In this document: piece after piece, positions 6,364 through 13,105 of the stretch
Layout of the letters: each line of letters starts with the position of its first letter
Position numbering within the stretch: the first letter of the stretch is position 1
DNA from: a candidate division WOR-3 bacterium
Lineage (GTDB): Bacteria > Hydrothermota > Hydrothermia > UBA1063
Assembly: GCA_039803545.1 (NCBI GenBank)
Contig: JBDRYS010000001.1
Span: 499,866 to 563,865, forward strand
Direction: 5' to 3'
DNA: 64,000 nucleotides
Program-made: the position numbers and the translations under genes
The notes under the pieces: model-generated
Seen by the model: the letters and a program-made list of their open reading frames with translations, nothing else
What the model was told of the DNA's origin: nothing
Database searches by the model: none

Positions 6364-6392
6364 TTGACTGTTTTAATAACCGAAGGTATAAT
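6364..6392 (+). promoter_or_regulatory. Near-consensus promoter of the nuoEF/chimera/gdh operon
   Basis: TTGACT (6364-6369), 17-base spacer, TATAAT (6387-6392): five and six of six consensus bases at optimal spacing. Transcription would start near 6399, giving a leader of about 90 bases before the first ATG at 6488. The leader shows no strong hairpin that I can see. The 6265-6360 stretch upstream holds no gene. Confidence 0.78.
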
Positions 6393-6487
6393 TTTAACAA
6401 TGCAATTTCTGATATACTTAGTTCAAAAATGTTCAGCAAAAATGCAAACTAATACAACCACAGAGGTAAAAACACAGGAGAGGTATT

Positions 6488-6952
6488 ATGGAGGATAAAC
6501 TAAATTTTATTAGAACCAGCGAAAAAAGTCCGAGCTCACTGATTCCACTCCTCCAAAAAACTCAGGAAACATTTGGATACTTGCCAAAAGAGGCTCTGGA
6601 GGAAATTTCGCGTCATCTTGAAATTCCCCTTACAAGGGTATTAGGAGTGGCAACTTTCTACGCTCAATTCCGCTTTGAACCCTTAGGTAAGTATGTTATC
6701 AAAATCTGTCACGGAACAGCATGTCATGTGAATGGTGCTGAAAATATTGCACAAGCGCTTCGTGAGGAGACAGGCATCGATGAAGGACAAACAACTCCTG
6801 ATGGACTTATAACGATCGAAAGAGTCGCGTGTTTGGGATGTTGCAGTTTGGCTCCGGTTATTATGATTAACGATAAAGTTTATGGTAAGCTTAACGGCGA
6901 AGCTGTCAGAAAGTTAATTAGAAAATTAAAGAAAGGAGAGCTTAATGATTAA
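6488..6952 (+). CDS. nuoE: NuoE/HydC-like [2Fe-2S] thioredoxin-fold subunit
   Basis: The 24-kDa-type subunit of NADH-dependent complexes (NuoE of complex I, HydC of bifurcating hydrogenases). At 154 residues it has the normal length. The four cluster ligands are visible as C74, C79, C115 and C119 (CHGTAC and CLGCC). An N-terminal helical bundle (PSSLIPLLQKTQETFGYLP) precedes the thioredoxin-like fold. A ribosome site (AGGAG) lies eight bases before the ATG. The 3' end overlaps the NuoF-like gene by 8 bases. With no complex I membrane subunits nearby, it more likely belongs to a soluble bifurcating enzyme than to complex I. Confidence 0.92.
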   Translation: MEDKLNFIRTSEKSPSSLIPLLQKTQETFGYLPKEALEEISRHLEIPLTRVLGVATFYAQFRFEPLGKYVIKICHGTACHVNGAENIAQALREETGIDEGQTTPDGLITIERVACLGCCSLAPVIMINDKVYGKLNGEAVRKLIRKLKKGELND

Positions 6953-8765
6953 GGCAATTGCTGTTGGTATGAATTCATGTGGAATTGCTGCAGGGGCAAA
7001 GGAAACATTTAATGCCCTTCAGAGGTTTTTAAAAGAGAAAAATATCAATATTCCTCTGAAGGTAACAGGGTGCGTTGGAATGTGCTATAGAGAACCTTTG
7101 GTCGATATTATATACGAAGATACTATCATTACTTACGGGAATTTGACTCAAGAAAAAGTTGAAAAACTGATTGATTCTCATATTATAAACAATGTACCCA
7201 TTCAAGAATGGATAGTCAAAACCGATAAAATCAATGGTACAAAAATCCTTGAAACTTGGGATGTTGATGGTTTCTTTGCTATGCAAAAGAAAATTGTTCT
7301 TGAAAATTCAGGATACATAGACCCTGAAAATATTGATGAGTATATTGCAAGGGATGGGTATGAAGCATTGAGAATCGCCCTAAAGCATAAACCTGAAGAG
7401 ATAATAGAAATCATTGAAAAATCAGGGCTTCGTGGCCGTGGAGGCGCGGGGTTTCCAACGGGTTTAAAATGGAAATTTACCCGAGAAGCACCAGGAGAAA
7501 AGAAATACGTAGTATGTAATGCTGATGAGGGCGATCCTGGTGCTTTTATGGACAGAAACGTTTTAGAGGGAGACCCACACAGAGTTTTAGAAGGAATGAT
7601 CATTGGGGCCTATGCAATTGGTGCCAGTGAAGGATACATTTACGTGCGTGCTGAATATCCGCTTGCAATTAAGAGACTTAAAATAGCAATTGCTCAGGCA
7701 AGAGAAAAAGGGTTCCTTGGTGAAAATATTTTGGGAAGTAATTTCTCATTCGATATAAAAATAAAAGAAGGTGCTGGCGCCTTTGTTTGTGGAGAGGAAA
7801 CAGCTTTAATAGCCTCTATTGAAGGAAAACGGGGAATGCCAAGGCCAAGACCACCATTCCCTGCTCAGAAGGGACTCTTTGGCAAACCGACAAACATAAA
7901 CAATGTTGAAACGTGGGCAAATGTTCCTTGGATAATAAGACATGGACCAGAGGCTTTCGCTTCAATTGGAACTGAAAAGAGCAAGGGAACTAAAGTTTTT
8001 GCTTTGGCTGGGAAAATCTCCAGGGGCGGTAATGTAGAGGTCCCCATGGGACTCTCTTTACGCGATATCCTGGTAAAGATCGGTGGAGGGACGAAAACAG
8101 GAAAACCAATCAAAGCAGTCCAACTCGGCGGGCCTTCAGGTGGTTGTATTCCCGAACAAATGCTTGATATTCCAGTCGATTACGAGTCTATAAACAAAAC
8201 GGGAGCGATCATGGGTTCAGGTGGGATGGTGGTGATGGATGCTGACACATGTATGGTTGATGTTGCTAAATTCTTTCTGGATTTTACAGTCAAAGAGTCG
8301 TGTGGGAAATGTACCTTCTGCAGGCTTGGAACAATGAGAATGTGGGAAATTCTTGATAAGATTTCAAAGGGAAATGGTGTTTTAGAAGACCTTGAAAATC
8401 TTGAAAAATTGGCATACGAAGTGAAAGCTGGTTCCCTCTGTGGCCTGGGTCAAACTGCTCCGAATCCCGTACTCACAACCCTTAGATACTTTAAGCACGA
8501 GTATATAGAACACGTGGTTGATAAAAAGTGTCGTGCTAAGGTATGTAAGCCTTTAATTGCTTATCGAATAATTACCGACAAATGCACCGGTTGTACAGCC
8601 TGTGCAAGATATTGCCCTGTTAAAGCAATCACAGGGGAGGTTAGAAAACCCCATTACATAAACCAGGATATTTGTATCAAGTGTGGTACTTGTTATGAAG
8701 TGTGCAGGTTCAACGCAATAGAGATTGTAGATGCTTTCCAGGGAGTGAAAAATGAGCAAAATTAA
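6945..8765 (+). CDS. nuoF: NuoF/HydB-like NADH-binding flavoprotein with N-terminal 2Fe-2S and C-terminal ferredoxin domains
   Basis: The 606-residue diaphorase subunit that binds NADH, FMN and Fe-S clusters. Order of parts: a thioredoxin-like domain (residues 1-85) with C12, C43 and C47 visible; the FMN site GRGGAGFPTG near 163; the NADH loop CGEETALIASIEG near 280; an SLBB domain; the NuoF [4Fe-4S] site (ESCGKCTFC near 450, last ligand in SLCGLG near 495); and a two-cluster ferredoxin domain (CTGCTACARYC near 546, CIKCGTCYEVC near 575). This extended layout is typical of HydB and other bifurcating BfuB-type subunits, not of complex I NuoF, which lacks the added ends. It overlaps both neighbours, by 8 and 14 bases, so the three subunits are made together. 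Confidence 0.93.
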   Translation: MIKAIAVGMNSCGIAAGAKETFNALQRFLKEKNINIPLKVTGCVGMCYREPLVDIIYEDTIITYGNLTQEKVEKLIDSHIINNVPIQEWIVKTDKINGTKILETWDVDGFFAMQKKIVLENSGYIDPENIDEYIARDGYEALRIALKHKPEEIIEIIEKSGLRGRGGAGFPTGLKWKFTREAPGEKKYVVCNADEGDPGAFMDRNVLEGDPHRVLEGMIIGAYAIGASEGYIYVRAEYPLAIKRLKIAIAQAREKGFLGENILGSNFSFDIKIKEGAGAFVCGEETALIASIEGKRGMPRPRPPFPAQKGLFGKPTNINNVETWANVPWIIRHGPEAFASIGTEKSKGTKVFALAGKISRGGNVEVPMGLSLRDILVKIGGGTKTGKPIKAVQLGGPSGGCIPEQMLDIPVDYESINKTGAIMGSGGMVVMDADTCMVDVAKFFLDFTVKESCGKCTFCRLGTMRMWEILDKISKGNGVLEDLENLEKLAYEVKAGSLCGLGQTAPNPVLTTLRYFKHEYIEHVVDKKCRAKVCKPLIAYRIITDKCTGCTACARYCPVKAITGEVRKPHYINQDICIKCGTCYEVCRFNAIEIVDAFQGVKNEQN

Positions 8766-11676: not shown

Positions 11677-11693
11677 TTGAAAGGAGGTCAAAA

Positions 11694-13052
11694 ATGTCTC
11701 AAATAGATGATGTCATAGCAAAAATAAAGGAGAAGGATAAAGATCAGCCTGAATTTATACAGGCTGTAACGGAAGTGCTCTCCACCCTCAGACCTGTAGA
11801 GGAGAAGCACCCAGAGTTTGTAAAAGCGAAGATCTTCGAAAGAATTGTGGAACCTGATAGAATAATTCAATTCCGTGTAGTCTGGGAAGATGACAACCAC
11901 AACATTCACGTTAACAGGGGCTACAGAGTACAATTCAATAACGCCATAGGTCCATACAAGGGTGGCTTGAGATTCCATCCCTCCGTTAACCTTGGGATAA
12001 TCAAGTTCCTCGGCTTTGAGCAGATCTTCAAGAATGCCCTTACTACACTCCCAATGGGTGGTGGAAAAGGCGGTTCGGACTTCGATCCTAAGGGCAAGTC
12101 AGATGCAGAAGTAATGAGATTTTGCTATGCCTTTATGAGTGAACTTTATAGACACATTGGTCCCGACACAGATGTTCCGGCTGGTGACATCGGCGTCGGT
12201 GCAAGGGAAATTGGCTACATGTATGGATTCTACAAGAAGATTATAAATGAGCATACAGGCGTCTTGACGGGTAAAGGGCTTGAATATGGTGGAAGCTTAA
12301 TAAGGCCAGAGGCCACCGGTTACGGATTAACCTACTTTACCCTTGAAATGCTTGCGACTAAGGGCATGGATCTCCAAGGGAAGATCGTTGCCATAAGTGG
12401 TTCTGGTAATGTTGCCCAGTATGCTTGTGAAAGAGTAACCCAGTTTGGTGGAAAGGTTATAACCCTTTCTGACTCCGATGGCACCATCGTAGATATGGAA
12501 GGAATTGATGCCAATAAGCTCGCCTATGTTATGGAGCTCAAGAACGTAAGAAGAGGAAGAATTAAAGAATACGCTGAAAAATATCCAAAGGCCAAATATT
12601 ACGAAAAGAAGTCAGTATGGGATGTCATAAGAGACGAAGGTATCAAAGTAGATATTGCCCTGCCTTGCGCGACTCAAAATGAGATTTACGAGGACCACGC
12701 TATAGCCCTTGTCAAGAATGGTGTTATCGCCGTTGCAGAAGGTGCCAACATGCCATCTACTCTTGAAGCTATTAAAGTATTCCAGGAACACGGAATTCTC
12801 TACGGGCCGGCTAAGGCTGCCAATGCAGGCGGCGTTGCAACCTCAGGACTCGAAATGACACAAAACAGCATTAGACTCCAGTGGACAAGAGAAGAAGTCG
12901 ATGCTAAGCTCCAGGAAATCATGAAGAGAATACATCAGAGCTGTCTCGATGCTGCTGCCGCCTACGGCAGACCAGGTGACTATCTCACGGGTGCCAACAT
13001 TGCTGGATTTGTTAAAGTGGCCAAGGCTATGCTTGCCTATGGTGCACTGTAA
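11694..13052 (+). CDS. gdhA: Hexameric glutamate dehydrogenase (NADP-type class)
   Basis: Interconverts 2-oxoglutarate plus ammonia and glutamate using NAD(P)H. At 452 residues it matches the E. coli GdhA class. Visible landmarks are the substrate-binding stretch [14 protein letters not shown], the catalytic region [17 protein letters not shown], the [10 protein letters not shown] loop and the nucleotide fold [15 protein letters not shown] strong AAAGGAGGT site stands before the ATG. It lies 17 bases after the bifurcating-enzyme genes and before a terminator, so it is the last gene of that operon. This couples glutamate synthesis or breakdown to the NADPH pool those subunits would set. Cofactor choice is inferred from class only. 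Confidence 0.95.
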
Positions 13053-13078
13053 TAAATCCAAAGGTTAAGAACCCTCGC

Positions 13079-13105
13079 AGGGCCCCGCAAGGGGCCCTGT
13101 TTTTT
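13079..13105 (+). terminator. Rho-independent terminator after gdhA
   Basis: An 8-bp perfect stem (AGGGCCCC / GGGGCCCT, 13079-13086 with 13091-13098), GCAA tetraloop, then GTTTTTT. It closes the nuoE-gdhA operon. Confidence 0.92.

Follow-up and report, generated by a model that had tools for sequence, protein, structure and literature searches.

Why would an uncultured anaerobic bacterium keep an electron-bifurcating transhydrogenase and a glutamate dehydrogenase (GDH) in one operon? The question was raised by a 64-kb stretch of a candidate division WOR-3 genome (G000; 1.67 Mb, 99% complete), hereafter the window, in which the transhydrogenase genes nfnC, nfnB and nfnA are directly followed by gdhA. 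The enzyme itself is known; the operon, the exchange of two transhydrogenases in the same slot, and the recurrent link to GDH are a new genetic context. I judge it probable that the operon represents an Nfn-Bfu transhydrogenase co-transcribed with GDH, with NADPH supply for ammonium assimilation as its most likely role.

The transhydrogenase and its relatives

Domains were called with Pfam and NCBIfam and solved relatives were taken from matches to the PDB. The three subunits were placed in the Nfn-Bfu family because the best solved relative of each was the corresponding chain of entry 9n5u: NfnC matched 9n5u_C over its full length (269 bits), NfnB matched 9n5u_B over residues 2-598 (1089 bits), and NfnA matched 9n5u_A over residues 1-963 (1295 bits, 61% identity). 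Entries 9n5u and 9n5v presumably represent NfnABC of Thermococcus sibiricus. NfnC contains a single [2Fe-2S] motif of the form CX4C...CX3C (Cys 74, 79, 115, and 119). NfnB shows the features of a BfuB, namely a NuoF domain binding flavin mononucleotide (FMN), the B1 [4Fe-4S] site, and a C-terminal 2x[4Fe-4S] domain, with cysteines at 453/456/459/499, 547/550/553/557, and 577/580/583/587. As for the special B2 and the N-terminal [2Fe-2S] clusters of a BfuB, the N-terminal domain shows three cysteines (12, 43, and 47), exactly as 9n5u_B does.

NfnA begins with a NuoG-type [2Fe-2S] domain (residues 1-90), continues with a GltD-type domain for flavin adenine dinucleotide (FAD) and NADP(H) (residues 97-495) and a NuoG-type Fe-S region (residues 580-760), and ends in a degenerate FdhF-like part. 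The inserted GltD/NfnB-like domain is the hallmark of a BfuA; the Fe-S cysteines and FAD/NADP motifs are the same as in 9n5u_A, the YRRS motif of the GltD-type domain is invariant between the two, and Arg234 is the counterpart of R239 in StnC. On these alignments, nfnCBA encodes a new member of the already known Nfn-Bfu/Stn (NfnABC, Type 1 Bfu) family of electron-bifurcating transhydrogenases, of the archaeal type, and coupled NADPH/NAD+/ferredoxin catalysis as well as NADP specificity would be expected of it. A novel chimeric enzyme was ruled out, since the 974-residue protein is homologous to the NfnA chain of 9n5u throughout its length. An earlier, sequence-only reading of this DNA had proposed an NfnABC-type bifurcating enzyme with a GltD-type FAD/NAD(P) domain, encoded by three overlapping genes (8 and 14 bases) with gdhA 17 bases on, between one promoter and one terminator. 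The matches to 9n5u and the conserved motifs bore out the enzyme and its domain, the open reading frames (ORFs) were found exactly so, and both signals were located and are conserved in congeners.

The T. sibiricus enzyme has been shown to couple NADPH oxidation to the reduction of NAD+ and ferredoxin (PMC9304861). The window enzyme resembles this type in its three full-length subunits, its domain order, and the cysteine set of NfnA, with archaeal members being 59-62% identical to the window NfnA and about 80% identical to NfnB. It differs in its bacterial host and in the gene order nfnC-nfnB-nfnA-gdhA, whereas the archaeal loci lack a nearby gdhA. In two of the archaeal NfnABC operons, nfnA is accompanied by a further GltD/NfnB-like gene that stands on its own (L051:5177-6421, minus strand; L052:7331-8572, plus strand). 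In the BfuB tree, the clade of the window's genus was sister to the archaeal NfnABC clade (support 100/100) and apart from the other WOR-3 Nfn-Bfu genes, which suggests a horizontal transfer, in either direction.

StnABC of Sporomusa ovata (PDB 8oh5) is a member of the same family, for which a tightly coupled reaction was shown, with NADPH entering at the FAD of the GltD-bearing subunit and bifurcation placed at the NuoF-like FMN (PMC10482914). It shares the NuoE, NuoF, and NuoG/GltD layout and the arginine equivalent to Arg234, but StnC is about 200 residues longer, has a fuller FdhF-like domain, and is ~40% identical to the window protein; StnABC serves acetogen redox balance and no link to gdhA has been reported for it. 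The small chain of glutamate synthase, GltD, shares the FAD/NADPH domain fold with NfnA, but in the window this fold sits within a NuoG-like protein, and the genome lacks the GltB large chain. The operon also differs from one for Complex I (Nuo), where NuoEFG would be encoded along with membrane subunits and NuoF would be free of a ferredoxin domain: it ends in gdhA, and a 2x[4Fe-4S] domain forms the C-terminus of its NuoF-like subunit.

The window GDH scored well above the PRK09414 cut-off of 536 bits, and its best PDB matches were the NADP enzyme of E. coli and a chimera thereof. The coenzyme motifs GSGNVAQ...SDSDG are present in the GDHs of G000 and its congeners G001 and G002, as in NADP enzymes.

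The gdhA link in the genus and beyond

All three genomes of the genus that carry nfnCBA have gdhA directly behind it, and NfnA of the other two is 83% and 67% identical to that of the window. The operon link to gdhA claimed by the sequence-only reading was thus found again in relatives, as the chimera adjoins gdhA in both other carriers. In G001, nfnA and nfnB of the canonical NfnAB type occupy the same slot, followed by a 24 bp gap and gdhA, and flanked by the same DUF6754-type and NIF3/transporter neighbours as the window operon. Among solved structures, the two slot genes came closest to the small and the large subunit of canonical NfnAB (PDB 4ylf/4yry and 5jca), an enzyme that catalyses the same overall reaction but consists of two subunits, bifurcates at the FAD of NfnB, and is homologous to NfnABC in the GltD-type domain only.

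No NfnABC was found in G001, no canonical NfnB in G000, and no canonical NfnAB (NfnA of about 280 residues, PyrK/FNR-like, with NfnB of about 470 residues) in the window. A 41% match on contig C4 of G000 was rejected as a second canonical NfnB, as it proved to be a 587-residue GltD-like protein by a NuoD-like ORF. NfnABC and NfnAB, which share a reaction but bifurcate at different sites, thus replace each other in a single slot of the operon, and the GDHs of G000 and G001 are 92% identical although their neighbour switches; the gap between nfn and gdhA is 17-24 bp in four species. It was known that Thermococcaceae carry either NfnABC or NfnAB (PMC9304861); in the present case, one locus with an unchanging partner shows the exchange. 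That a sister species fills this very slot with another enzyme of equal function suggests that the two activities, transhydrogenase and GDH, work together.

Adjacency was surveyed in about 450 genomes of three phyla. For WOR-3, the GDH loci of 42 genomes were scored for a Nfn or Bfu gene at most 1 kb from gdhA, and 12 of the 42 had one, against about 0.2 expected from a rough random-order estimate (four modules per 1900 genes), with the caveat that related genomes are not independent. Besides four genomes of this genus, the arrangements were nfnA-nfnB-gdhA (G105, G107), gdhA-nfnA-nfnB (G113, G114), a convergent pair (G062), and gdhA beside bfuC-bfuB (G115, G122, G135), of which at least four are independent. 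Families f1, f31, and f22 and the Bacillota show the adjacency again, in either gene order; in Bacillota, nfnAB-gdhA or gdhA-nfnAB was found in two of 25 genomes having both (G343, G381). An apparent NfnB-GDH fusion in G107 (a shared 1008-residue frame) resolved into separate ORFs of 471 and 446 residues. No report of an nfn-gdhA link was found in the open-licence literature searched; the link is real and unreported in searchable papers.

Another WOR-3 cluster near gdhA, which includes BfuC, was seen in G104 (L107:6228-14560), G115 (L122:8060-14028), and G122 (L139). In G104 and G115 it has a protein of about 1060 residues in which BfuB is joined to a GltD-type domain; a HoxU-like ferredoxin subunit of 227 residues is also present, and G104 and G122 have an ORF with a Glu_synthase domain. 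The cluster is possibly a bifurcating core tied to glutamate synthesis.

Operon borders and neighbouring genes

The promoter-like site upstream of nfnC ranked top among 31 candidates in 11 kb, and an identical TTGACT-17-TATAAT lies 124, 137, and 105 nt upstream of the first gene in three species. AAGGAGG also precedes gdhA in G001, G002, and the further congener G003, and in four species gdhA is followed by a G/C hairpin whose tail is rich in T. As the promoter is kept in three species and the hairpin in four, the operon borders are not due to chance. In the cell, nfnCBA and gdhA would be co-transcribed.

Table 1. Features of the nfnCBA-gdhA operon, in window coordinates.
Feature	Position	Strand	Evidence
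Operon promoter, TTGACT-N17-TATAAT	6364..6392	+	11/12 consensus positions
nfnC / bfuC, NuoE-like [2Fe-2S] thioredoxin-fold subunit, 154 aa	6488..6952	+	PF01257 3e-52; 9n5u_C 6e-80
nfnB / bfuB, NuoF-like subunit of 606 aa binding FMN and NADH, 2x[4Fe-4S] ferredoxin domain at the C-terminus	6945..8765	+	PF01512, PF10589, Fer4
nfnA / bfuA, NuoG/GltD fusion, 974 aa	8752..11676	+	Pfam, NCBIfam; 9n5u_A match
GltD-type FAD/NADP(H) domain within nfnA, expected NADPH site	9040..10236	+	PF14691, PF07992
Shine-Dalgarno sequence of gdhA, AAAGGAGG, in the 17 bp gap	11680..11687	+	sequence
gdhA, glutamate dehydrogenase of the hexameric type, predicted NADP-specific, 452 aa	11694..13052	+	PRK09414 751 bits
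Strong intrinsic terminator of the operon	13077..13100	+	10-pair stem and T run

Downstream, a DUF34/NIF3 ORF listed at 13106-13894 begins in the terminator tail; its homologues begin at residue 13, and the true start is therefore probably about 13142. Upstream, four membrane-protein-like genes on the minus strand (2639-5850), with DUF6754 (4768-5850) as the single Pfam match, are kept beside the operon in G001 and G002. Further along the window (15821-17471), a gene for an archaeal-type RNA ligase (PF09414 and Lig_C of Pab1020) adjoins an oppositely oriented PIN_5 ribonuclease gene; their 3' ends overlap, and this arrangement is likewise kept in G001 and G002.

Direction of the reaction and competing explanations

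In the proposed mechanism, a hydride would pass between NADP(H) and the FAD of NfnA, whose Fe-S chain would carry electrons one at a time to the NfnBC core, where FMN and the neighbouring clusters would couple NAD(H) with ferredoxin at the proposed bifurcation site. The net reaction would be NADH + Fd(red) + 2 NADP+ <-> NAD+ + Fd(ox) + 2 NADPH (Fd, ferredoxin). GDH would draw on the NADPH side, linking the glutamate/2-oxoglutarate reaction to three pools, those of NADP(H), NAD(H), and ferredoxin. Most likely, NADH and reduced ferredoxin would be used in confurcation to yield NADPH for reductive amination, and the system could run in reverse when glutamate is degraded. Ammonium would probably enter glutamate through GDH, since no GltB large chain or glutamate synthase (GOGAT) was found in G000, where the sole match to PF01645 was weak and turned out to be IMP dehydrogenase. 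As to direction, assimilation would most likely be favoured over fermentation.

A different coenzyme type was encountered in G003, whose gdhA (L091:16826-18160) encodes a mosaic: N- and C-terminal parts of the NADP lineage enclose a coenzyme domain of the NAD type (residues about 201-340). Its motif, GFGNVAW...SGPDG, matches that of the NAD-specific C. symbiosum enzyme 1bgv, which is its best PDB match and on whose alignment the NAD-type assignment rests. Identity to the GDH of G000 is 86% over residues 1-200 and 76% over residues 370-445, but about 41% over residues 241-320, a segment in which NAD-type GDHs from further WOR-3 families show 62-80% identity to it. This looks like recombination that swapped the coenzyme domain inside the operon. 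NADP- and NAD-type GDHs are also mixed beside NfnAB in G107 and G105. Adjoining pairs of NAD-type and NADP-type GDH genes occur in three WOR-3 genomes (L115, L116, and L129 in G050, G056, and G064, respectively) and are possible donors for the mosaic.

Several results weigh against the favoured reading. The NAD-type GDH in the operon of G003 fits poorly with a simple supply of NADPH to GDH, and G000 has five 2-oxoacid:ferredoxin oxidoreductase gamma genes, which would also fit amino-acid fermentation. None of the 20 Thermodesulfobacteriota genomes that have NfnB together with this GDH showed adjacency, and gdhA was absent near seven archaeal and about eleven other bacterial Nfn-Bfu loci (flanks up to 9 kb) as well as near ten other WOR-3 Nfn-Bfu loci (1.5 kb flank). 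The adjacency seen at all three carriers within the genus was thus missing at about 28 loci outside it, and is not intrinsic to NfnABC; the gdhA link is therefore to the function of a bifurcating transhydrogenase, mainly canonical NfnAB, rather than to the NfnABC protein family.

The strongest competitor, which I consider possible but distinctly less probable than assimilation, is the opposite direction: GDH would oxidise glutamate in peptide fermentation, NfnABC would bifurcate electrons from NADPH to NADH and reduced ferredoxin, and a hydrogenase would form H2. The oxidoreductase gamma genes and the clostridial-like GDH of G003 are in line with this, as are a second G000 locus (L094, C1:182000-201800), in which two BfuC/BfuB-like pairs precede a hydrogenase-like ORF of about 598 residues, and the growth on peptides of T. 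sibiricus, the owner of a related enzyme (PMC9304861). It is countered by the NADP-type motif of the other three GDHs, which is usual for assimilation, and by the failure to find GOGAT as an alternative means of ammonium assimilation in G000. The enzyme is reversible, and its sequence would fit either direction.

A more speculative idea, and one I regard as unlikely, extends the assimilatory reading to a dedicated exchangeable module, in which the slot would take NfnABC or NfnAB and GDH an NADP- or NAD-type domain, with assimilation directly coupled to ferredoxin and possibly a physical association. The paired transhydrogenase would connect the three carrier pools, so that either type of coenzyme domain could serve in GDH.

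It is improbable that gdhA is a bystander, that is, that two housekeeping redox genes were co-inherited in one genus without functional coupling. The missing linkage to NfnABC outside the genus and the separation of GDH and Nfn in most WOR-3 genomes would agree with this, but NfnAB substitutes for NfnABC in the same slot, and the adjacency recurs in both orders in three families and in Bacillota, far above chance.

A metabolon of all four proteins with direct passage of NADPH is very unlikely. The tight linkage kept in four species speaks for it, but no extra domain was found on the window GDH, and G005, an order-level relative with an 80% identical GDH, showed no Nfn/Bfu gene within about 4-6 kb of gdhA; moreover, a dedicated interface is disfavoured because the partner changes while GDH stays nearly the same. 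The sequence-only reading had supposed that the four proteins form one metabolic unit, maybe a complex, of which the link to gdhA stands, while nothing supports the physical complex. Least probable of all is an NsoABC-like NADPH:sulfur oxidoreductase in place of the transhydrogenase: NsoC of Thermococcus litoralis is among the nearest homologues of a subunit of this type (PMC10482914), but among the solved relatives compared every subunit is closest to NfnABC of 9n5u, and the ferredoxin and FMN domains of BfuB are complete.

Bifurcating transhydrogenases are usually regarded as balancing redox carriers in general, and the particular NADPH-consuming reaction that one of them serves is seldom evident. 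The conserved operon with gdhA, in which two mechanistically different transhydrogenases interchange, names such a client, be it nitrogen assimilation or glutamate degradation. The coenzyme-domain swap in the GDH of G003 offers a ready-made natural experiment, and the operon provides a testable account of how ammonium assimilation may be driven in anaerobes without glutamate synthase.

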